The position numbers and the translations under genes are program-made. From assembly GCF_963576615.1 (NCBI RefSeq), contig NC_088711.1, forward strand, positions 3,224,001-3,288,000: a DNA stretch of 64,000 bases, given 5' to 3'. Below are positions 6,217 through 43,247 of this stretch, piece by piece (within the stretch, counting starts at the first letter, position 1; the number at the start of each line of letters is the position of its first letter). Source of the stretch: Watersipora subatra (lineage: Eukaryota > Bryozoa > Gymnolaemata > Cheilostomatida > Watersiporidae). The notes beneath the pieces are model-generated. The model searched no databases. It saw nothing but the letters and a program-made list of their open reading frames with translations, and was not told where the DNA came from.

Positions 6217-7107
6217 CAATAGATGCTCTTTTTACGTAAATTCCACTTAACGTAGAGAATTAATGTAAAATTCTTGCTTTGTGTTATGTAAAATTTTTCA
6301 TAAAATGTAACGAGTCCAGTTTGGGAAAGCTCTATTAGAAGGGAGAGATTAGATTGGGAGAGCTCTATTAAGTTCTATTAGAATAGTGAGAATCTCATAG
6401 TTAGCCTTGAAAGTATCATTTTTTCTTTTGCTATACTTAGAAAAAAAACGACGTATGTGGGTATCTATTATATATACTAGTACTCTTGCAGTCTAGTGTG
6501 TCTGAGAGATATTCAGGTGTGCTGGGAAAGCACAGAGAATAAGCACAATCATTGAGAAATAGCTAGAGGTAATCGTTTCATGTACGTGTTAGAGTGTTGG
6601 TCTTCCAAGCTGAACGTCACAAGTTGGAATCTCGTTGAAAGTGTTTTTTATGCTCACTTTTAACCCTGGCTTTGGATGGACAGACAGAATTATTACAGTA
6701 GAGATGTATTTTTGTTTTACTTTATTTTAGACATGCAATTTTTTCTTTGCAGCATAGATCTTGCTATGTAGAAAAAGGGAAAAAATCGATTTAAATTAAC
6801 ATTAAAGGTATCCGCTAGCCTTAACTTAAAATTACTGTAATCATGACCTTAAATCAAGTGAAGGTAATAAGAAAAAAAGAGAAAAGTTGACGATACAAAC
6901 CAGTAATACCACCGTTACTGTACACTCATTAAATTTAAATGTCAAGTTTAGTTTTTTTCTTTCTGACGATTTAAGGGGTGAGTTTGGGAAGATCTTCCAA
7001 CGGATTAGGCAATTCACGTGTATTTTACTGTTTGTATAACGTAAAATACCTATAACGTCAATGTTACTAAAACGGGTTTTGTACGTAGGCTGTAAGACCG
7101 TCTACTG
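6217..7107 (+). mobile_element. M1 element copy 1 (TA-flanked non-autonomous transposon, about 0.89 kb)
   Basis: The element begins CAATAGATGCTC and ends GACCGTCTACTG. These are diverged forms of the CAGTAGATGCTCCTA / TAGGAGCATCTACTG termini seen in the copies at 17832-20104 and 32705-33570. Shared internal blocks include AAGATCTTCC..GGATTAGGCAATT near the right end. A tRNA-like block lies at about 6575-6640 (TTAGAGTGTTGGTCTTCCAA, then CACAAGTTGGAATCTCG). It has no coding capacity. CAG..CTG ends and TA targets suggest a pogo/mariner-mobilised element. This is the most diverged of the three copies. Confidence 0.7.
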
Positions 7108-10948: not shown

Positions 10949-13900
10949 ATGGACATCGTCCATGACTGGGAGCTAGAGCGATATGGCAAGTTTGATACGC
11001 AAGTTCAGAATGGCTGGTCTACCATAGAGAATAAAGGCCATAGCGTAAAGATCTTGGCTTCAAGGAAGTTCCTCATCTCTTCAGAATCTACAGTTTTGGT
11101 ACTTTTTTATTTTACTGGATGTATATATGAAAATAGGCAATTTAAATTTATTCTAAAATTTTCTTATACATGATATGTTAATATCTTTAGCACTTATGAG
11201 TAACTCATATACCACAGTCCTCAATTTGAGGGTGTAAAACTACCTGACATGCCTCGTAATTCCTGAAAAGAATAATTGGCATAAAATTGCTTAAAAGACA
11301 AATCACAAACAAATTAAAAACTCACAATTATAAATCAAAAAGTATACTAACTAACGTCAAAAACATTACAGTCAATTTTCTACACACAAAATAATTCCTT
11401 CTGAGATCTGCTTAATACGTCAAATGTTGGAGCAAGTATTCATACAGGACTGCTAGAATTTACGCCACATCCGTAAAACTGTTGGAAACATACTAATAAA
11501 TATTGTAGGTAATTAAACAAAACATTGTATTACAACAAATGCATTATAAAATGAAGTAATGATTCAAATATAAGAACTTATCAATTTTTAAAACTAACAA
11601 ATAATAAAAATTAAAGGTACTGTTATTGTTGTTTTATCTTTGAGAAATCCTAACGGATGTGTTGATGGTGATGCATAGGTTCAAAGGTAGAGGAGGTGAT
11701 TCATGGTGATGCATAGGTTCAAAGGTAGAGGAGGGGATTGATGGTGGTGCATAGGTTTTAAAGTAGAGGAGGTGATGGATGGTGATGCATAGGTTTAAAG
11801 GTAGAGGAGGTGATTCATGGTGGTGCATAGGTTTAAAGGTAGAGGAGGTGATTCATGGTGGTGCATAGGTTTAAAGGTAGAGGAGGTGATTGATGGTGAT
11901 GCATAGGTTTAAAGGTAGAGGAGGTGATTGATGGTGATGCATAAGTTTAAAGGTAGAGGAGGTGATTGACGGTGGTGCATAGGTTTAAAGGTAGAGGAGG
12001 TGATTGATGGTGGTGCATAGGTTTAAAGGTAGAGGAGGTGATTGATGGTGATGCATAGGTTTAAAGGTAGAGGAGGTGATTCATGGTGGTGCATAGGTTT
12101 TAAAGTAGAGGAGGTGATGGATGGTGATGCATAGGTTTAAAGGTAGAGGAGGTGATTCATGGTGGTGCATAGGTTTAAAGGTAGAGGAGGTGATTGATGG
12201 TGATGCATAGGTTTAAAGGTAGAGGAGGTGATTGACGGTGGTGCATAGGTTTAAAGGTAGAGGAGGTGATTGATGGTGGTGCATAGGTTTAAAGGTAGAG
12301 GAGGTGATTGATGGTGATGCATAGTTTTAAAGGTAGAGGAGGTGATTGACGGTGATGCATAGGTTTAAAGGTAGAGGAGGTGATTGACGGTGATGCATAG
12401 GTTTAAAGGTAGAGGAGGTGATTGACGGTGATGCATAGGTTTAAAGGTAGAGGAGGTGATTGACGGTGATGCATAGGTTTAAAGGTAGAGGAGGTGATTG
12501 ACGGTGATGCATAGGTTTAAAGGTAGAGGAGGTGATTGACGGTGATGCATAGGTTTAAAGGTAGAGGAGGTGATTGACGGTGATGCATAGGTTTAAAGGT
12601 AGAGGAGGTGATTGACGGTGATGCATAGGTTTAAAGGTAGAGGAGGTGATTGACGGTGATGCATAGGTTTAAAGGTAGAGGAGGTGATTCATGGTGGTGC
12701 ATAGGTTTAAAGGTAGAGGAAGTGATTGATGGTGGTGCATAGGTTTAAAGGTAGAGGAGGTGATTGACGGTGATGCATAGGTTTAAAGGTAGAGGAAGTG
12801 ATTGATGGTGGTGCATAGGTTTAAAGGTAGAGGAGGCGATTGATGGTGATGCATAGGTTTAAAGGTAGAGGAGGTGATTGACGGTGATGCATAGGTTTAA
12901 AGGTAGAGGAGGTGATTGACGGTGATGCATAGGTTTAAAGGTAGAGGAAGTGATTGACGGTGATGCATAGGTTTAAAGGTAGAGGATGTGATTGAGATTT
13001 TATCCACAACTTATTCTAACATGGACTAAATAAAGTTTAAATTAACTTAGCTTATATATTTCTGAAACATTCTTACCTTTTGTGGTACTTTTCACCAGCA
13101 CTCTTTCACTTACGAAACTGCTATTTTCTGAGAAACTTTGAACGTTGTAGGTTAGAAATTACTCAGGTGTAGAAACAAATCTTTATTTAAAATGTGTAGT
13201 AATATGGCAAATTCATACATGGAGCTAATCGTAAATAAGGTTCACGCCAGGCAGGCAAATTAAAATATTTTCATTTGCATCATACAACATTAAGCCAATG
13301 TTCACAGTGAAGTTCAGTCTTTTAATGGTGATATCTGCTCGCCAGATTTAAGGGAGAAGCATGCATGTATTGCCTGGAGAGTAATCATCTCGTTCGTTAG
13401 AGCTATAGACAATGTGAAGAAAATGTATCCCCTACACCAAATGACCTACTTGCTATACTATGAAATAATTGTGCACATATTTATCACTCCTGCCAATCTT
13501 GAATGGTGATTGGCTAAAATATCCACGCTTCACCTAGCGCGCTGTAAAATATTTTACTAAAAAAAGACATGCCCAGACTTCCCTCAAAATGCTATAAATA
13601 CGTATGTATACATAATTGTATATGTACACATACTTACTATATACTTACTATATTTACTTGTTTCACATACATATACATACTTGTTTATGTATACATATAC
13701 AAGTATGTATACATAATTGTATATATATACTATATGCCCAGGTCATAAAAGAGATTTTGCACAGAAAATTTATTTTTATTTAACATTTAACAACAGTTAC
13801 TGTTCTAACTTTCAAATTTCATATCATGAGAAAAGCGTTTCGTGCAGTAGAAATGAGAAATAAAAATAAAACAGCTGTAAAGGTGTTTAAATGTAAATGT

Positions 13901-16900: not shown

Positions 16901-19900
16901 GAAAGGCCGTGTCGACCATAGTCCGTGTTCGGTTAACAATGAAGTTATTGTTAGTTCAATATAAGAATATACATGTACATGTATACAGTAATTAATATAG
17001 TTTCATGAGTACAATTTAAATATAATTCACATACTACAGTTAATACACAAACAACACTTAACATTAATCAAACGATAAGAATGAAAGTGTTATCGTGTGT
17101 TCTTTTAGTTGCGGTATTTCTTTGTAGAGTGACGGCTATCGGTTTCATTACACATTACATTAAAAAGTAAGACCTATTCAATAGATGGTAAAAATATACA
17201 TGTACAAAGCAATATGTTTATAATAATTATGATCAATCAAGCTAAAGATTCTTAGAATATATAACTTCGGTATTTTAGAGCTGTTTGTGTCACCTTTATT
17301 TATTTATATCACTATTAAAATGTTGTATTTAAATCATTTACACCAGGTGAAAATTCAATTTAAAAAGAGTTTTATCAATTTTATATATACCAAGTAGCTA
17401 GTACTTGTGTAGTAAAATCATCACCAAATGCTCATTATTTTACTGTCTCGTGTCTCGAGTCTCGAATTTTTACAAGACAGTGTCTCGAGTCTCGTCTCGA
17501 ACTTAAAAAACCTGTCTCGTTCTACCTCTAGTATATGTGCATATATCTACTAATAAATAAATACATGGACTTGTGACAGTGCTCTGATAACTTGAACGCT
17601 CTGATAACTCGAACGCTCTGATAACTTGATCACTTTCGCTCGGTCCCGTGAAGTTCGAGCTATCCATGTTTGACTGTACTTGTAATATTTGATTTACAGA
17701 TAACCTAGTCTGAAAATGAATGTGTTCATTGCTTTCAAGTTGTCATCAAGGTTACATGAACGCATCACTCCAAAACAAACTGGAGTTCAATAAAACCGTA
17801 AGCCTTGTAAACCTGTATACCCTGTTAAATACAGTAGACACTTCTATTACGTGTACCTCCTATAACTTCAATTCCAGATAATATAAACAATTTATGCAAA
17901 GTTTTTGCTTCGTACTACGTAAAAAATGTCATATAACGTAAGGTGCCAAGTAGTTGCAACTATTCAAATTGGATTTGAATGGTAACATATCTCGCCCCAC
18001 TTGTGAGAAAAAATAACGTATGTATTGCATTATATATACAACTTCTATGACATTTTACTTCATCGTGAGTGACCGTCAGATGCATTGACAAAGCAGAGAA
18101 TAGGTAGCTGCGCAATTGTTCATAAATACTTAAAGGCGATCGATTGGTGCAGGTGTTACTGCGTGGGTCTACCAATCTAAATGTCACAAGTTGAGTGTAT
18201 CGCCGAAAGTTATCTTTTATCCTAATCTTGACCCCCCTCCCCCCTAGATACAGATAGACGACGAACTGGTAGTACCACATTTTTATAGTATAAATATTTT
18301 TGTTCTACTCTATGTAGACGTATAAAATATTTGTTATTAGTTCTACTATGCGCTCCCATCAACTTATTGTAAAATTAACCAATCATAATCTATTAAACCA
18401 GTGGAATTGATCAGAAAAAGGAGAAGAGTTGTCAATGCAAACTAATCCCACGACCAAACACGAGCGAAGCGTGTGTTTGGAAGCTTTATGATAAATGCAT
18501 ATGTGCACACAACTCCTGAAAATTATCCATCAACATCCATACCCAAACTCTTGTACCGAAATCCCATCAAAAACTTTAACCATTTTTCTGTGGAGTCGTT
18601 TAAGTATAATAATGATACAAAACACATAAACCTATTTAAAAATGTTACCAAGTCTTTTAAAAACGTCGACAATATCCTAAAACTTACCCATCTGATCAGA
18701 TTATACATTACTTGAAAGATTAATTTGGCCTAAAATCGTCATTAAAACCTGACAAGACTTTTTAATCAAAATTAAGACCGGCTAACAAAACTCCCATAAA
18801 GCCGTGCGACAGATAGTAGAACCGTGCGCATTTCACGAGAAAAATGTGCACATGTCACCAGTCTATGGCCTAAATTACCACTGGAATACCGTTTGTTGCT
18901 TTCTCTCTAGGAAGAGTATAGTTCATATTGGAAAAAGTTCGTTTCCTGTTACAACGGTAAAATATTGAGAATAGTAACTTTAAAATCTTGAGATTAGATT
19001 TTACTGAACTCTACTTTTCCCTATTATTAGGGAAACTGAAAAATTTCCGCACCTTCAGTAAAATCCAATTACAAGATCTTGAAGTTACTATTCATCGGCT
19101 TACGCCAACCAACTCTCAATATTTTACCGTTGTAACAGGAAATGAACTTTTTCCAATATGAGCTATACTCTTCCGTCTCTCTAGTTCGAAACATTAATGA
19201 CTTACTTGTTAACAACTTCGCTAGGAAGCGCATCACTCGATTAGCTATCAATGACCAAATCCTACAACGTAAAAGAGAGGAGACTAGACTGCGCGACCTT
19301 TAACGGAACACTGCACTTATCTAACAAAACTGTTTCTATTATTTTCTATATGAACTTTTTCTAAACACTTTATATGTCTCCTTTTCGATATTTCTATTAT
19401 TATATATTTCCTTTGATGTTAGTTCGTATACAAAATACTTTACATATACTTATATAGGGCCTACATATAAATCTATTTACAACATTATTCTATATCATAT
19501 ACCATAATTCCATTTCTATTACTTTATATACAACTTTACGTTCCCCATATGCTTTTCATTCACAACATTCCTAACATTTTTCTATACTTACACTTCTAAA
19601 ATAGAACTTTTTCACTTTTATATATTTATTTATATTACACTACCAAATACAACTGTAATATCAACAATTAACCAATTACTCATATACCTGGCTTGAACCC
19701 AACATTACCTCCAAAATAAATTGTTAGTTGCACCTTTTTGGAGTCGTGCTCCCTCAAATGTATTTTATATCATCTCGAACAACTCTCATTTACACTATAC
19801 TCTGTCAATTCCTGCTGACAACTACTTTTTCTACAACCAGCAGTACCCTTTCTTTTTTCCATTATCACTTTGGTCGTGGGCTGTATTACAGGGGAATTCC

Positions 19901-22900
19901 TAGTAATATTACAGCTACGATACTGCCAACAAATTAAAAAGGTAAGTCTGGTTTTTCTTTTTTGTATGGCCAAAGGGGTGAATTTGGAAAGATCTTGGAT
20001 TAGGATTAGGCAATTTACACGTATTTTACTGTTCGTATAATGCAAAATCTTTATAACGTAAAACTTCCTGAAACAGATTATTTACGATGTAGGAGCATCT
20101 ACTGTATATATTACTGCAGTAAAAGATATGACCAATGATAAGCTTTTTCTGATCATGTTGCAAAAAATTGATACTCCACATAATTTCTCTATGTTTTGCA
20201 CCTTTATTCCAATAATGCCTCATTGGAGAAATCACTCATCAACTTGTGAAGTGTAAAGTCAGCTAGTAGTACCATTTCCTATGCACTCACAAATTACAGT
20301 TCATTGTAATGTCTATAGTTCGCTGCCACCACCGGGCCACGCATGAAACCTATTAACCTTGCCGAAACACATTAAAATATCAGTTATGCCATAATTACAC
20401 TGCTTATTAAAACATACTCATGCTGCCGCACTGGAAACGGTTTTTCTAAACGACTTCCACTGGTTTCCCTAATGGTGACATTGTACGTGCTGACTCATAT
20501 TTGCTTTTACATATATATACGCCAGTTTCAGATTAGCCACGCAGTAGCAGTTTTAGTGCTGTGGGCAGCAAGTAACCCAGCACAAAAAGTTTTATTATCA
20601 ATAAGTGACAAAATTATAAGTGAGAGACTAGCAGGCCTACGGAGGCAAAAGGTCAGTTTTATTATATACCTATATGTATTTTATTTGACTAAATTGAATG
20701 CTTTTGTTTTAATGTGACTTTCATGTCAATTATATAATGTTTGTTTTATGTTATTATACTTTACACTGTAGTTTTATTGTGACATGTACTTTTGTAGACT
20801 TCACGGTCTATTCCGGCTATCAGTAAAATAAACAGTCATATCTACCAGAATACGATCAGTTCAGTTTAAACCACCGCAAAACCTGCTGTCATCTCGATTC
20901 GTGGCAATTTCGCTACAGTGAAGTCTTATCCTATGGTGGAATAAGAAACAATCAGTAAATCAGCACAGAAGCAACAAATCTTCTGGATCATCAGAAAACA
21001 GTCAGCTATTCAACGTAAGAGACATATCGTTAGAATTGTTGAACAATCAGTTATTCGTGGAACGAAAGAACCACAGCAGTCGATCAGTATATCAAAAGAA
21101 TCAGCATACGTAACATTTATCAGTACAGGACATTATCGTCTTAAAGCAGTCAACTCAGCAAAAGGCAGTTACATATTGCATCAGCAGAAAACCACAGCAT
21201 CCCAACTCTCCTCAACAGGAACAGATAAGCAATTTACTTCTATTCTTATTTTTCAATCAGTGTTTTTGCAAGCTTTCTTTTCAAACTTGCAATCAACTCC
21301 AGTTTTAGTAACTTGGAACAAGCTTGCTATCAGTCTTTGTTTAGACAATTTGGTTTTGATTTATTTAGAATCATATTGTAAACCGTGCTGGCTAATCTGA
21401 AAGGCAGTTATATGAAAATTTGTGTTCGTTAATTGTTAAAAGCAGCTAGAGTGTCACCAGCGTTTGTGGTTACGGTGGAAGAAGTTTAGTCAGCCGTTCT
21501 ATTGTCGCTTGCGCGTGAGATGAATTAATAGGCTATTAATATTGGCACAAACTCATCGCAATCCTTACATATTTTGTGGTTTGCTGTCGCGGAATTGTGG
21601 GTAATATCGTGCAGATTTGGCAGCAGCAGTAATTAACCAGGTGCAATACTCATCACAGCTATTAGAAACTTTGATTTTACACATAATATTTGGTGTGCCA
21701 CCGTGTTGAGTAACGATGGCTGATGAAGAAAATCATGCCACAAATTCTTTTGAAAATGTAACTGAAACAGAAAGTGCAGAGGCACCATCTGTAAGCATGG
21801 CAGCTAGTGAACAAAGTACGACACATTTGAGCAGTATAGATGTTGTAAAACAGCGAAGCTATAGAAAGCCATCTGAAAAAAGTAAACAGAATAAAGCCAG
21901 CCAACTAAAGACAGAAATAATCAGTGTGATTAGCTCAAAGCTAGATTCTTTTGAAAAGAGTTTTCCTAGCATAGACAGAACTGATTATGATGCATTGTAT
22001 ACCTATTTGTCTCACCTTGAGAAAGATGATGGTAGTGAAATACAAATGCTTTGTGAAGAATTTTATACTCTGTGTAATAATAAAACAGATGAACAAGTTG
22101 AAAACCTGAGAGCAATTTATCGCAGCGAGCGAGAAGAAAATGTTGCATCATTAAATGGGCTTTTGGATGAGATCGAAGCTAAGGAAGAGGAGGAGAAAGC
22201 TTTAATAGAGCAAGAGATGGAGAGACGGCTAGCAATGCTGGAGGAGCAAAGGAAGAGGCAAGCAGAAGCAAGAAGAGCATTTCAAGAACGGTTAAACCCA
22301 ACACTGAGAAGAGTTACTAGTCAACCACTCAGTGTTGAACTTGACCAATCAGCAGAAGTGGAGATGCCAACAACTATTGATATGCAATCTCCTTCTCGAA
22401 GTTTAAATGAGCAGCCAGTTCTCTCTAAGTCAGTTGTGAAGTCGTCGCCAACACAACACGCAAGCAATCGCCTCTCACAGGAATCGACACCAAAGCTCAC
22501 AAGCACGAGTCAGGAGTACGGTGCTCTAGAACGACTAACAAACTCCATCACAGAAGCAGTAAAAATTACAAAACGTACTATAGTTGAACCGACAATCTTC
22601 TACGGCGACCCGATGAAGTTTAGAGATTGGGAATCCGATTTTGATGAATTTCTCGACGCAGAAGGCATCACAACAAGTGCTAGAAAGATGCGCATACTCA
22701 AGAAGTTTATCAGTGGCGATGCCCGCCGATGTGTTGAAGGCTTTTTGCTGGATGACTCATTAAATTCGTATACTGAAGCAAGAAAACTCTTACAAGAACG
22801 ATTTGGGAAAAAGGTGAACATAGCTCGTCATCTGAAGAAAAAACTCAAAGATTGGCCTAAAATAGGAAACAGGGATGGTCAAGCATTGCAACAGTTTGCA

Positions 22901-25900
22901 GACTTTCTCAGTCATTTACTTAGCGCAAAACCAACAGTCTCACATTTGAACAGTCTTGATGAATCTGAAAGCAACGAAGAAATGCTCGAGAAGCTGCCTG
23001 ACTGGTTAAAGATCAAGTGGAAGTACCAAATACGTAAGTATGAAAAAGACCATGATGACTACCCTCCCTTCAGCGTATTCAAGGAATTCATTAATGAGGA
23101 AGCTTCAACAGCTAACATCTTGGGAACCAAAGAAAGTACACGCAGTGACAAGTTTTCGGAGCTAAATAGAAGAGCAAATTCGAAGCAGTTGCAAACATTG
23201 CAAGCTTCAACATCGAAAGACAGGAAAAGCATGACAGCAGAACAATCAACCAAGTATTGCAAGAAGTGTGATCAATACAATCACCATACAGCCCAGTGTA
23301 ATTTGCTTGTCAAGGCCACATACGAAGAAGCCTTACAGTTCTTTAAGGAAAATCACCTCTGTTTCCATTGTGGAAAGGGTAATCACAAACACAATGAATG
23401 CTCTAATCGGTGGAAGTGCAAGGTCTGTAAACGTTCACATCCAGATTGTCTCCATAAATCAAGCAGCGATTGGGAAAGTGAAAAGCCTCAGCAGTACAAC
23501 AAAACAGAAAAAATACCCGTAGCTCAGAGCTCGCAAGCAAGCCCTAAAGACTCAACTCAACCATCTAAGCAACATATTGTGGCTATGGCTAAACAACCCA
23601 ACCAAATCGGACTACTAAGTATGCTTCTTCCAGTAACGATCTTATGAGGAAATGGACGCGAAATGACAGTCTATGCGTTACTAGACAATGGATCTGACAC
23701 AACATATATCACAGAAAATGCTGTAGATCAGATAAAGCTGAAATCTTATGGTGAACCAGAAAAGGTTACAATATGTACTTTGGCAGGAGAAGAAACTAGG
23801 TACAGAAAGAAGTATAAGTTCTCCATTAAAGGAACTGGACCAGCAGCAGATAGCTCTAGTTTTTCAATTGTTGCGCTAGAGCAAAAAACTATACCTCACA
23901 ATGAGAACCAAATACCAACCGAAAAGGTAGCCAAATCCATACCTCATTTGAGTCATATCGCCCACCTCATCTCACCAAAGCTAGACCTTGCTGTAGACAT
24001 GCTGATTGGACGAGACAATTCTCACCTATTAGCACCACATGAGTCGATAATTGCAGATGCGTCAGAGCCGTTTGCTATGAGAACAGTTTTAGGTTGGACA
24101 CTATGTGGAGGAAATCCAAGTGCTGATGCACTACCATCGAGCTGTTTCGCCTCACAAAACGATGAGTTTCATGACATAAACGACCAAAGAAAGATGTCGC
24201 AAAATGACATGACCTTCCTGAAAATACTAGAAAGTGGAACTAAAACAACAGATGATGGTTCTCTTTCGTTACCATTACCTTTTACTACTACTCCATACAT
24301 GCCAAACAACAAGTCTCAAGCCTTGAAAAGACTTAAACAGCTCATCAAAAGATTGCAGGGTGATGCCATTCTAAAGAATGAGTATTTCAAGTTTATGCAG
24401 GATATGATAAACAGTGGACACGCAGAACTTGTGCCTGACGGAAGCACACCTGAAGGGCAGAAATGGTATTTACCACATTTCGCTGTATTTCATCCTAAAA
24501 AGCGAAGTCTTCGAGTTGTATTTGATGCCAGTGCAAGGTATGGAAACAGAAGTCTCAATGAAGAACTGCTATCTGGGCCTGACCAAATGAACAGCTTGCG
24601 TGGAATTTTATTAAGATTTCGTCGTGAACCTATAGCCATATCATGCGACATACAGAAGATGTTTCACAATTTCAAAGTCGACGAAAAAGATAGAAACTAT
24701 TTACGGTTTTTGTGGGTAGAGGCTGATTTGCAGACTGTCAAAGAGTATCGGATGACTGTACATCTATTCGGAGCTACAAGCTCTCCAGGAGTAGCTACCT
24801 TTGCTCTAAACAAGGTAGCAGCCGACTTCAGACAAATATCCCGAAGCAGCAAAGTTCATCATAAATGACTTTTATGTAGATGATGGCATAACTGGCGTCA
24901 AAACCGAACAGGAAGCCACAGACTTGATCGAGAATGCAGTGAGCATATGCAAAAAAGTCAACCTTCGTTTGCACAAGTTTCTCAGCAACAAGGGAAATGT
25001 GCTTGAAACCATCCCAAACACTGAAGTAAGCAAGAACTTGCAAGGACTCGACATCTACAAAGACAAGCTACCTTCAGAAAGAACACTTGGCCTGGAATGG
25101 TGCACAGACAGTGACACCTTCACTTTTACTAACAATAAGACTGAGAAGCCACCTACTAAAAGGGGCATTCTTTCTTCTGTATCCCAATTGTACGATCCTA
25201 TTGGTCTTATCGCACCTTTTACCCTTCAAGGAAAAATCTTGATGCAGCAGTCTTGTAAAGAGGACAAAAGTTGGGACCAAACCGTATCCCCTGATTTACA
25301 AGAAAAATGGAGAAAATGGAATGATGGTTTTGACCAACTCCAAAACATTAAAATACCAAGGTGTCTAAAACCAGCTGGTTTTGGAGAGGCTCTCAGAAGT
25401 GAGCTGCATTATTTTGGTGATGCAAGTTTGCAAGGGTTTGGTGCCTGTGCCTATTTGAGGATTATCAACAAAGAACAAAGAGTGCACGTTGCACTGATCT
25501 CTGCCAAATCTAGAGTAGTACCTGTCAAAGGGCTAACGATTCCTCGCTTAGAGTTACAAGCAGCAGTGGAAGCGGTGAGACTTGCCAACTTTATTAGAAC
25601 AGAGCTGCAGACACATATTGACCAAGAATACTTTTGGTCAGACTCTACAACCACCTTGGGATATATTAAGAACAGTGATACTCAATTCCGCATGTTCACA
25701 GCAAACAGAGTTAATGAGATCCGAGAGAGCAGCAACCCCAACCAGTGGTACCATATCTCAGGAGTTGAAAATCCAGCCGACATTGTATCACGGGGTGCTT
25801 CAGCCGAACAACTAGCAGCAAGCAATTGGTACAAAGGACCAGCCTTTCTCCAGCAACTTACTATCGATGAACAAGTAAAGAGTGACAAAGACTATCAAGA

Positions 25901-28900
25901 AACTTTAAAAAACGACCCAGAGGTAAAGATCCTTAAAACAGCGCTAATGGCCAAAAGTACTTCAGAATCCTTCATTGAGACAATTTCAAAGAAATTCAGC
26001 TCGTGGAGACGTTTCGTTAGAGCCATAGCAAACGTTCAATCCGTTTTAAGAAACAAGAGCTTGAAGAAAGTGTTGAAACTTTCTGTAGAGCAAATGCAAG
26101 ACGCTGAGACAGCTATAGTTCGACTACTACAACAAACAACTTATTTGCAAGAAATCAAGAAGTTAGCAGCTGGGAAACAAATCAACAAGGACAGCAAAAT
26201 CCGCAGTTTGACACCATTTCTTGATGAGTCTGGATTGCTACGAGTCAATAGTAGGTCGATGTCTATCTTAACCTTTCAAGAAAAGCGGCCGCTAATCATT
26301 CCCAAAACAGACTTAGCCAAACTGCTCATCAGCCACTTTCACCAGTCCACTCATCATTCAGGCACTAATGTGACTGTGTCAGCAGTCAGACAAGCTGGCT
26401 ACTGGGTCACAGGAGCTACAGCCCTAGCGAGATCAATTGTTTTTAACTGCGTCAAGTGCCGTCTACAGCGAAGCAGACCGACAGAGCAGATCATGGGATT
26501 GCTACCTGAAGAACGCACCAGCCCTTCTCCGCCATTTACTCACGTTGGGCTCGACGTATTTGGTCACTTTCTTGTCAAAGAGCGTAGGTCAGAGATTAAA
26601 AGATGGGGCATAGTGTTCACATGTACTTATACCAGAGGTATCCATATTGAACTGATTGACAACTTGACAACTGATAGTTTCTTGCAAGCTTTGAGAAGGT
26701 TTCAAGCCATAAGAGGACAAGTACGAACAATATTCTGCGATAATGGCACAAATTTCGTTGGTGGGAGAAATCAGCTAGAAAGGGATCTATTAGAAATGAA
26801 AGACTCCAGAGCCAAACAATTTTTATTAGACAACAAAATACAGTTCAAAATGAATACGCCTTCAGCAAGTCATCAGGGGGGCTTGTGGGAAAGACAAATA
26901 CGCACAATCCGAAGTATCCTCAATAGCATGACTCCAAAGTATTCCGGACGACTAACCACAGAAAGTTTGCAAACAGCCTTCATGGAAATTACAGCAGCCA
27001 TAAACAACAGGCCTCTCTCAACCATAAGTGCAACGGACACCGAACCAGTTATAACGATCAACCATTTACTGACGGGCAAATCTCAGAATATTTTACCACC
27101 ACCAGGAGAATTCACATCGGATGAGCTATATGGAAGGCACATGTATAGGAAAACCCAACAGCTAGCACAAGAATTCTGGGAAATGTGGAACAGTCAATAT
27201 TTAAGCAAAATAGAGATGAGAAGTAAATGGCAGCATCCGCAGCCAAACCTCAAGGTGGGAGATGTTGTTTTGATCATAGACGAAAACCAGCCCAGGAACT
27301 TTTGGTCAACTGGCAAGATAGTTGCCTTACATTTCGGAGCTGACTCACGAGTGAGAAAAGCGACAGTAATGCTTGCAACACCAGATCTGGACGCTAAGGG
27401 AAAACCTATCGACAATAGAAAGGTTATAGATAGACCAGTACAGAAACTGATTCTGCTTGTGTCACCTTAAGAATGTTAGCTAGTACATTTATTCAATTGC
27501 TTATAGTCCATTTTATTGTATGATCATATGCAACTTAAATAGTGAATTCATATTACTGGTCAATTATATTTACATAATACAAAACAAAACTTGAACACCC
27601 TTCATCTTAAATTAAATGCAAATTTAGGTGGGAGTGTGAAGTGTAAAGTCAGCTAGTAGTACCATTTCCTATGCACTCACAAATTACAGTTCATTGTAAT
27701 GTCTATAGTTCGCTGCCACCACCGGGCCACGCATGAAACCTATTAACCTTGCCGAAACACATTAAAATATCAGTTATGCCATAATTACACTGCTTATTAA
27801 AACATACTCATGCTGCCGCACTGGAAACGGTTTTTCTAAACGACTTCCACTGGTTTCCCTAATGGTGACATTGTACGTGCTGACTCATATTTGCTTTTAC
27901 ATATATATATGCCAGTTTCAGATTAGCCACGCAGTAGCAGTTTTAGTGCTGTGGGCAGCAAGTAACCCAGCACAAAAAGTTTTATTATCAATAAGTGACA
28001 AAATTATAAGTGAGAGACTAGCAGGCCTACGAAGGCAAAAGGTCAGTTTTATTATATACCTATATGTATTTTATTTGACTAAATTGAATGCTTTTGTTTT
28101 AATGTGACTTTCATGTCAATTATATAATGTTTGTTTTATGTTATTATACTTTACACTGTAGTTTTATTGTGACATGTACTTTTGTAGACTTCACGGTCTA
28201 TTCCGGCTATCAGTAAAATAAACAGTCATATCTACCAGAATACGATCAGTTCAGTTTAAACCACCGCAAAACCTGCTGTCATCTCGATTCGTGGCAATTT
28301 CGCTACAGTATATATTACTGCAGTAAAAGATATGACCAATGATAAGCTTTTTCTGATCATGTTGCAAAAAATTGATACTCCACATAATTTCTCTATGTTT
28401 TGCACCTTTATTCCAATAATGCCTCATTGGAGAAATCACTCATCAACTTGCAATGGAGCAAGAATTGTGCATCATTCTTAAAGAACAAGTTTTCATCTGC
28501 ATTCGACGTAGTTGCGTTCACATTGACTGGTCGTAAGTCGGCCTGAATACAAAAGTTGAACTATTAAATATAATATTATTTATATGATCCTTTAAATATT
28601 TTTGCTGTAGACTATCATATATAGTCTACAGTAAGTTTATGATATTGAATAAAATAATTGTAAATATACCGCACTGTCAAGAATGGCACATCTATTCGCT
28701 ACTCTACACAATGTTAAATATGTCTATGCATTATAAAGATATTATAAATTGTGGTCATTTTAAAGATGGTGAAACGTCAGTTGCATAGGGTTTAAGTCGA
28801 TGACAATTATTAGTCGCATTAACAAGCTGACACTGATGAGGGTCATACAAGTTTGATGTTTTGGAGTCTTTCTCCCGTTCAATAAGGAAAACAACTTCAA

Positions 28901-31754: not shown

Positions 31755-34700
31755 CGTTTAACGTACATCTTGAAGCCTGGGAGGCCTACGAAGAATGGGC
31801 TGGAAATGCAAGTGATTTGTTAGCAAAAGTAAGATAATTAGTTTTTCTTACAACTATAATTAAAAGTTTTTACGTAATTTGGTTATGCAGCAATTTGCTA
31901 ATACCTCTATCGGTAGATATGCAAAAATTAGTATTGTAACTACATATACTAGTCGGCGTAGTATGCAGTAACTCTCAAACGGTTATTGTAGAACCATACT
32001 GTTTGTGAACTTGTTCAGTTCTCTCAACTTAACGTTTTCATTATTTGTGTTAGTTCTGCAAGAGTCAAACATAGTCTATTTGTTTGACTGGTGTACTGTT
32101 TAGTCTGCGCGTTTCGCTGACCGAAACGCTCATTTTGGCAGTTTTATACCGAAAACTACTCGAGACATGTGTTTTTTAAATAAACATTTACCTCATAGTT
32201 TCCACTTTCACCCTAGGGTGGTCTAGAAGCTATTTTAACACAAACCTAAGTATATACGTATACTAAATGAATGTCCGGCGTTGCCCAGGTAATAAAAAGT
32301 TTGTGCACGGAAGATTTATTTTTATTTAACATATAACAACATTTATCATTCTAACTTTCAAATTTCATATCATAAGAAAAGTGTTTTGTGCAGTTCAAAT
32401 AAATTTAGAGAAAAAGTAAAACAAATGTAAATGTGTTCAAATTTGAAATAATAGGCTAGTAATAGCTAGATATAGTAGCCTATGGTCTACTCTAATGCGT
32501 AGGCCTACAACAACAAAAAATGATTTGATACTCATACAATTAATACGAACTAAGAAAACAAAAATCGTACACAAGTTGACTTAATAACAATGAACACATA
32601 AAAGTGTGTGTATAAAAAGGTTACTGTTGCGGCAGAAACCATCCATCCAAAATTTGAATACAACTACTGGTACAGACGTAAAAATGATATATCGGAATTA
32701 AATACAGTAGGCGCTCCTACAATGTAAATAATCCAGTCCAGAAACATTTACGTTATGGTGAATTTACGTTGTAAGAACAGTAAGATACATGTAAATTGCC
32801 TAATCCGTTCCGAGATCTTTTCAAACTCGCCCCTTTGACCATTCCAAAAGGTAAAACTTTACGTAACTCTTTTAATTTGTGAGCTGTACCGTAACTGCAG
32901 TATTATTGATTTGCATCGGTATCTTTTCTCCTTTCTTTGATCAATCTCACTGGTTTTATAGACCATGATTGCGGTAATTTTACAACAAGTTGATGGGGAC
33001 TGCGCCTTTTCGACGTTCATTTACGATTTGCTTATTTTTCTAAACAGCAAAGTCTATTCTGCAAAGTAAAACTAATAACAAACATTTTGTACATCTACAA
33101 TACGGCAAAACAAAATATTTTTACTATAAAAAGCGCTTCTCCTCGTTTGTTGCCTATCTGTATGCAGGGATCAAGGTTAGGATAAATGATAACTGTCGAT
33201 GTTACTTGAACTTGTGGCATTCAGATTGGTGGACCTACGTTGTTGTATCTGCACCAATCGATCGCCTATAAGTATTTATGAGCATTTGCGCAGCTATCCT
33301 ATTCTCTGTTTTGTCGACACATTTGATGAGTTATTACGATGACCTAGAATGTCGCGAAAGATATATAGTAGATATAACGCTACACGCCCGTCGTTTTTTG
33401 CAAGTGCGCCGTGATAAACTAACATTTAAATCAATTTTGAAAACTTGCCCAAATTGACACTTTACGTTATGGAATTTTTTACGTAGTACTGAACAAAAAC
33501 TTCGCATAAATCTTTTACGTTATTTAGGAGGTATACGTATAGGAGGTATACGTTTTAGGAGCATCTACTGTACATTACTGAAGCAGTGAAACGCACACGG
33601 TATTTTGTGACCAAATCAAGAGAAAATGTAGAGGTAATTCCTATTTGAGATAAAGTAACATACAACTGTCCATGTAAAAAGTTTTGGGTTAGTTTTTAGC
33701 AATTGACCTTAGTTGCTAAGGGGATTGAAGGCGTGTGAATTGAAATGGAATATGAAAATGACAAACTAAAAAAATAGGTAATGAATATAAGGCTTTTAAA
33801 AAAATTTTAAAGGAAAAACATGCAAAATGTAATATTAACAATAAATAGTACATACTTAGCTTGTAACCTGCAATTGCGGCTAGAAGTAAACGTGGTATTA
33901 CAACTTCGGTATGTCGAACCGATGCAATGTGGAAAAATGAAGCTGAACAAACAGATTTTAGATAAGGATAGATAGATATGTTAGTAAGATATGGACAGTG
34001 TAGTGGTAAGGCACGCCTGTCTGCAGGCTTGGAGGCTGTGTTCAAATCCCATGCGAAGCGTATTTTTCGCTGTAAGATTTTTATCTATAACTGAACAGAC
34101 ATAGAATCAACAGACCGACAAACAAACGACAAACATGGAGTTTCATTTTTATATATATATATATGTATAGACCGTTATCGGAATACTTAGGATCTTGTTT
34201 TAACACCTGTCAACTGCGTTGATGAAGTGCTACTAATGTTATTCGGGTTGTTAACGGCTCTAAACTTTGTAATGCCTTGTGTTAAATAGTTCTTGGTCCT
34301 TCTGGACTCTCACCATACTTTTTAAATTTGCTGTATTTGTGCTGCAGAGTTGTTTTGTCACTTTTGATCATAGAACACTCGAATAAACACCGATGACGTT
34401 GTGTGTATAAGGGAGAAAGTGCTTCATATGGTTTCTGATTTGGGGACTACTCATAATGAGGACAGTGGGAATACAGCATGCTGCTGAGCTTCTTGATTGT
34501 TTGTCGGCTCAATCCTCATACATCTTTCACTATATGAGAGAAAATTGTTGTACATGTAGTTTTATAGCTGCATAGGGTTCACCCATTAAAGCCGAACAAT
34601 AATTTTTGTTTCTTTTTTGTCAAGGCTCTCAAGGCCTGCTTGGACCATTTTTGACAGAAATTGAAGGTTAATTGACAGGTCACAAATGCCTTATTAGTAA

Positions 34701-40312: not shown

Positions 40313-40799
40313 CAGGGATTACGTGTTTGTCACAATTTCCATTTCCATAACATTTCCATAATTCATTTCCATATTATTTCCATAACATTTCCATAATTCA
40401 TTTCCATATTATTTCCATTTCCATAACATTTCCATAATTTATTTCCATATTATTTCCATTTCCATGACATTTCCATAATTCATTTCCATGGTTTTTTCCA
40501 TTTCCATAATATTTCCATAATTCATTTCCATATTATTTCCATTTCCATAATATTTCCATAATTTATTTTCATATTATTTCCATTTCCATAATATTTCCAT
40601 GATTCATTTCCATTTCCATTTCCATTTTTTTCCATTTCCATAACATTTCCATAATTCATTTCCATATTATTTCCATTTCCATAACATTTCCATATTTCTA
40701 AAATAAAATTTCCTTATCCATTTCCATAAAATTATGGAAATATTTATGTTTATGGAAATGGAAAAGTAAACATTTCCATAATATGTTTAGCGATCCCTG
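40313..40799. mobile_element. hAT MITE with TTTCCAT-rich body, left copy
   Basis: 487 bp, ends CAGGGATTACGTG and TTTAGCGATCCCTG. The body is tandem variants of ATTTCCATAACATTTCC / ATTCATTTCCATATT. The right part contains the inverse word ATGGAAAT, so the element can fold back on itself. Confidence 0.75.
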
Positions 40800-42816: not shown

Positions 42817-43247
42817 CTTGGATTACGTGTATGTTACAATTTCCATAATTCATTTCTATATTATTTCCATTTCCATAATTCATTTCCATATTATTTCCAT
42901 AACATTTCCATAGTTTTTTCCATTTCCATAATTCATTTTCATATTATTTCCATTTCCATAACATTTCCATAATTTATTTCCATATTATTTCCATTTCCAT
43001 AATATTTCCATAATTCATTTCCATATTATTTCCATTTCCATAACATTTCCATAATTCATTTCCATAGTTTTTTCCATTTCCATAACATTTCCATAATTCA
43101 TTTCCATATTATTTCCATTTCCATAACATATCCATATTTTTAAAATAAAATTTCCATATCCATTTCCATAAAATTATGGAAATATTTATGTTTATGGAAA
43201 TGGATATGGAAAAATAAACATTTCCATAATATGTTTAGCGATCCCTG
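42817..43247. mobile_element. hAT MITE with TTTCCAT-rich body, right copy
   Basis: 431 bp, about the same structure and orientation as 40313-40799. The left terminus reads CTTGGATTACG instead of CAGGGATTACG; the right terminus GCGATCCCTG is intact. Confidence 0.75.

Follow-up and report, generated by a model that had tools for sequence, protein, structure and literature searches.

For LTR elements of an annelid, the study concerned describes target duplications of 3-5 bp as usual and defines intact elements by paired target duplications. Longer duplications are on record for retroviruses. Among the 15 XMRV integrations described in one report, the duplication measures 4 bp in 13 cases, 5 bp in one, and 273 bp in another (PMC2857682). 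The last of these, clone C-3, has lost 5 bp at its left LTR end, which, according to the corresponding passage, might have caused uncoordinated joining (PMC2857682).

HIV vectors integrated under perturbed integrase yield aberrant proviruses, most of which, in the published description, keep one normal end (PMC5041404). At the aberrant end, a duplication of host DNA is the commonest finding; the repeats are usually much longer than 5 bp and reach hundreds or thousands of bp. This end usually carries a short homology and is often truncated, as the same description states (PMC5041404). In the account proposed there, the free viral 3' end primes on nearby DNA, usually via the short homology, and host recombination follows (PMC5041404). 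Aberrant proviruses made up 0/99 and 0/85 in the unperturbed controls and 6.6-14.8% with elvitegravir in the counts given (PMC5041404). Among the matches listed, no title or abstract opening mentions a BEL/Pao element between long flush repeats. Here, we describe a BEL/Pao element of the bryozoan Watersipora subatra which lies between such repeats.

Results

Identity and age of the element

The window, i.e., the whole stretch of 64,000 nucleotides that was analysed, contains the element together with the features compiled in Table 1. The element is a BEL/Pao LTR retrotransposon because its reading frames match the Pao retrotransposon peptidase (Peptidase_A17, PF05380, E 3.1e-51), DUF5641 (E 1e-22), and DUF1759, all above the curated Pfam cut-offs; the matches to RVT_1 and to the zinc-binding and core domains of integrase are all below them. 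The paired LTRs have TG...CA ends, as BEL/Pao elements do, and the 4-6 bp target duplication of this group is absent at the insertion. The missing short duplication is a trait of this insertion and leaves the pol-defined membership in BEL/Pao unaffected.

Table 1 Positions of the element, its flanks, and the older repeat copies in the window
Feature	Position	Strand	Remarks
TIR element, third copy	6217-7107		Similar to copy A
TIR element, copy A	17832-20104	+	TA-flanked, older than the BEL/Pao insertion; similar copies at 32705-33570 and 6217-7107
Host segment, left duplicate	20104-20244	+	141 bp (143 bp with the shared TG); exact match to 28308-28448
BEL/Pao element	20245-28307	+	8,063 bp, bounded by two LTRs
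Left LTR	20245-20917	+	673 bp, TGT...ACA; 2 differences from the right LTR
Internal region of the element	20918-27634	+	Between the LTRs; Pfam matches in its reading frames
gag-like ORF (DUF1759)	21716-23647	+	Ends with a stop; same frame as the next ORF
pol, first part	23663-24868	+	RVT_1 match below cut-off near the ORF end; frame shifts afterwards
pol, remainder	24924-27470	+	Peptidase_A17, DUF5641; integrase zinc-binding and core, both below cut-off
Right LTR	27635-28307	+	673 bp
Host segment, right duplicate	28308-28448	+	Exact match to 20104-20244
TIR element, further copy	32705-33570	minus	Similar to copy A

The insertion is young. Its LTRs are 99.7% identical (2 differences in 673 bp), and one of the two differences, a C in the left and a T in the right LTR, is in CpG context. 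As read in the window, the coding region is interrupted by an in-frame stop between ORFs 1 and 2 and by a frame change before ORF 3, which may be mutations or sequence errors. An uninterrupted coding region is not required of old or damaged BEL/Pao copies. Inspection by eye identified no primer-binding site in the element.

Relatives of the element were searched for in two sets of contigs. In viral_contigs, the protein-based search gave two stretches that matched the pattern, neither of which encoded a relative, and a 28-base word of the LTR had no match. A degenerate integrase pattern matched once in the same set (L001); the best tblastn alignment covered 9 residues (E 0.19), i.e., no relative. 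In genome_contigs, 53 stretches matched the pattern for the integrase region, and none of them encoded a relative.

Nine further open frames from elsewhere in the window were compared with Pfam; four had a match, and each of these lies on the minus strand at 288-2406. This region consists of pieces of a retroelement pol spread over several frames, with matches to RVT_1, RNase H, and the zinc-binding and core domains of integrase. At 11655-12995, a 38-bp unit is repeated some 35 times as a minisatellite (95% matches). Repeats of the ATTTCCATAA type form two related arrays, at 40335-40696 and 42839-43163, whose starts are about 2.5 kb apart.

The flanking duplication

A reading made from the sequence alone had proposed a BEL/Pao insertion between 141-bp direct repeats, with unmatched bases next to the LTRs. 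Both statements are confirmed by the Pfam domains described above and by the junctions. Positions 20104-20246 are repeated exactly at 28308-28450, and the host copies directly adjoin both LTR ends. This exact repeat ends in TG, which on the left is already the start of the LTR and on the right consists of the two host bases that follow the segment. The duplication is therefore 141 bp long if the LTR is read as TGT...ACA and 143 bp long if it starts at TGAAG; within this 2-bp ambiguity, both LTR ends are complete. The host bases adjoining the LTRs, CAACT and GTATA, agree at 1/5 positions, and no short target duplication of 3-10 bp was found at the LTR ends (best agreement 4/9).

Within the 64-kb window, the 141-bp segment has no further copy; the best remaining similarities span 20 bp (90% identical) and 13 bp, with E values of up to 0.5, and shared exact words are 12-13 bases long. 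An exact match of 141 bp would lie far beyond chance expectation. No differences between the two flank copies are observed; 0.42 would be expected at the LTR rate, and the probability of none is 0.66. The identical flank copies and the 99.7% identity of the LTRs hence fit a single recent event.

We rejected the segment as a part of the LTR or as another repeat of the window, as it lies outside both LTRs and lacks a further copy there. A coding exon is also considered unlikely; in a six-frame translation of the joined host flanks, frames extend to about 70 residues. A near-palindrome at 20105-20128, at the start of the duplicated segment, is 83% self-complementary over 24 bp.

Simulated insertions

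Insertions were simulated in two kinds of target, and the resulting flanks were compared with the observed ones over 100 bases on each side. One target was a two-copy array of the 141-bp segment, to which 300 bp of host sequence was added at each end. The element was placed at every base from 100 bp before copy 1 to 100 bp after copy 2, with target duplications of 0-7 bp. With target duplications of 1-7 bp, the observed flanks were obtained at no position tested; with zero target duplication, they were obtained only when the insertion was exactly at the joint of the repeats. In a single-copy target, staggers of 0-299 were tried, and only a stagger of 141 gave the observed flanks. Thus, the 141-bp repeat is not a chance likeness; it was made by the insertion event, or else two insertions, one at each of its borders, recombined later.

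Homology at the junctions

At the left junction, the shared bases are TG, and the host bases ahead are TG at 7.2% of host positions. At the right junction, the LTR end CTACA faces a host sequence ending in CTACT, with the mismatch at the terminal base beside the junction. A likeness of at least 4/5 bases, noticed after the fact, is reached at 1,047 of 55,635 host positions (1.9%), and exact CTAC at this offset is present at 185 of 55,643. The CTAC likeness suggests that the right LTR end is the one joined by the host, but the terminal base differs and this LTR is not truncated; the likeness could be the short homology expected at an aberrant end.

The repeat element at the border

The left border of the duplication coincides with the terminus of a TIR element, three copies of which were seen in the window. 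Its inverted ends are CAGTAGA...TCTACTG, and five of the six termini are flanked by TA. By these ends, it may be Tc1/mariner- or pogo-like. The longest frame wholly inside a copy, among those of at least 90 codons, has 114 codons. Copy A is much older than the BEL/Pao insertion because, at the border end, its identity to a second copy, B, is 77% over 208 bp. It is split by about 1.46 kb (18442-19903) that the other two copies lack in their aligned parts.

Copy A and the left duplicated segment overlap by a single base, so that the segment starts one base inside the terminus. The far border of the segment, CATCAACT, agrees with the TIR terminus, CATCTACT, at 7/8 bases. Agreement of at least 7/8 is found at 134 of 63,780 window positions (0.21%), this site and the tandem arrays included. 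The expectation that a border falls no more than 2 bp from any of the six TIR termini seen is 0.05% per border and 0.11% for two. Both coincidences were picked post hoc, involve overlapping bases, are not independent, and leave the termini of other repeats uncounted, and we do not treat them as proof. The likeness between CATCAACT and CATCTACT may be accidental, may mark a break site, or may have assisted repair. That a break at the transposon end, from failed cleavage of the DNA transposon, seeded the entry of the retrotransposon cDNA and that the 141-bp copy was made during repair seems improbable to us.

Discussion

Uncoordinated, one-ended integration of a BEL/Pao cDNA into single-copy host DNA is the best explanation of the locus, with a probability of roughly 45%. 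Integrase would have joined one LTR end, the left one at the boundary of CATCAACT and TG being the more natural choice. The second end would have been joined not at the usual distance of 4-6 bp but 141 bp upstream, where the TIR element ends. The other end may have been joined by a separate second strand transfer. Alternatively, the free 3' end of the LTR may have served as a primer at the CTACT/GTATA site close by, from which host polymerase copied the 141 bp before the chromosome was rejoined. In either case, filling or copying of the 141-bp stretch would leave one copy on each side. We infer the single-copy ancestry of the target, the order of joining, the enzymes, and the end that was joined first.

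The locus has the two features that one-ended integration calls for, a long flush duplication of host DNA and no short one, and in the simulation both flanks are recovered when the two ends are joined to a single-copy target at points 141 bp from each other. One-ended integration is further supported because a recent single event fits the 99.7% identity of the LTRs and the identical flanks. Against it, neither LTR end is clearly truncated, unlike the often truncated aberrant ends of HIV and the XMRV clone, and the homology at the right junction is mismatched at the terminal base and was chosen post hoc. Its precedents come from cell culture and concern retroviruses rather than BEL/Pao elements. 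Such an event is rare, since aberrant proviruses were absent from both HIV-vector controls and amounted to the percentages quoted above with elvitegravir.

One-ended integration, recombination between two insertions, and capture of cDNA at a break all account for the observed structure. For recombination, two allelic insertions of the same family would have been present on the homologues, 136 bp apart if each had a 5-bp duplication. One parent would contribute its right flank at GTATA (20104) and the other its left flank at CAACT (20244), and a crossover inside the element would duplicate the interval. Flush repeats and unmatched short flanks are predicted as observed, and the geometry is fitted as well as by one-ended integration. 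Crossing over between roo elements at white has been published. In P. tricornutum, five apparently intact elements with LTRs more than 99% identical and without target duplication were read as recombinants between two members of the family in the passage that deals with them (PMC2806351). However, the family must have inserted twice, independently and in trans, at sites 136 bp apart, both insertions must segregate together, and recombination yields any duplication length, of which 141 bp is presumably a small share. The need for these two insertions in trans is the sole reason, and a matter of judgement, for which we rank recombination below one-ended integration and regard it as a credible but unlikely course of events. 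A phase switch of the assembly inside the element would mimic the recombinant sequence artificially. A plain assembly artefact is very improbable: the window contains no N, and for contigs joined within the element to yield this sequence, both junctions would have to be real in some molecule.

The sequence-only reading had favoured capture of the cDNA, with microhomology at both ends, at a break that had 141-nt overhangs. Here, a linear cDNA would be end-joined into a break whose two ends both bear the 141 bp, from staggered nicks or breaks of sister chromatids, and the gaps filled afterwards. The same structure results, TG is common to both sides of the left junction, CTAC lies near the right one, and the border at the end of the TIR element is a conceivable break site. 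The shared bases thus exist as claimed, but they are slight, with 2 bp only on the left and a mismatched terminal base on the right. Both LTR ends are complete, and a rare break with long overhangs would be needed. We therefore consider capture at a break distinctly unlikely and do not prefer it. The other proposal of that reading, a tandem duplication of the flank which the element split later, could have arisen by slippage between CATCTACT and CATCAACT at the borders, where the octamer preceding the segment and the one at its end have 7/8 bases in common. It fails in the simulation, as no tested position combines the observed flanks with a target duplication of 1-7 bp. What is left of it, an insertion without any duplication exactly at the joint, is very improbable.

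If one-ended integration is true, the locus is a genomic example of an outcome described for retroviruses in cultured cells. Annotation pipelines that require a target duplication can drop such copies. Screening elements without a short duplication for long flush flanking repeats would yield a direct count, and the length distribution of these repeats should help to distinguish one-ended integration from recombination between elements.

In comparison with known systems, the element resembles the LTR elements of Daphnia pulex, BEL included, in its TGT/ACA ends; the BEL elements there average 7,350 bp compared with 8,063 bp here (PMC2996953). It is unlike them in its target duplication, as the 251 LTR elements of this species, all groups taken together, are described with TGT/ACA ends and target duplications of 4-6 bp (PMC2996953). 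With the recombinants of P. tricornutum, it shares a complete element, nearly identical LTRs, and the lack of a matching short duplication (PMC2806351). The passage on these recombinants, in contrast, describes no long flush flanking repeat (PMC2806351). Aberrant HIV-1 proviruses differ in that they are reported with inhibitors or integrase mutants and often have truncated viral ends (PMC5041404). They are like the present locus in the long duplication of flanking host DNA, for which a short homology is given as usual in HIV (PMC5041404). XMRV clone C-3 is a retrovirus in cultured cells with 5 bp missing from its left LTR; the present element has two complete LTR ends within the 2-bp ambiguity. 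Both are integrase-type elements with a long direct repeat of host DNA, which in the case of C-3 was tentatively attributed to uncoordinated joining in the passage on this clone (PMC2857682).
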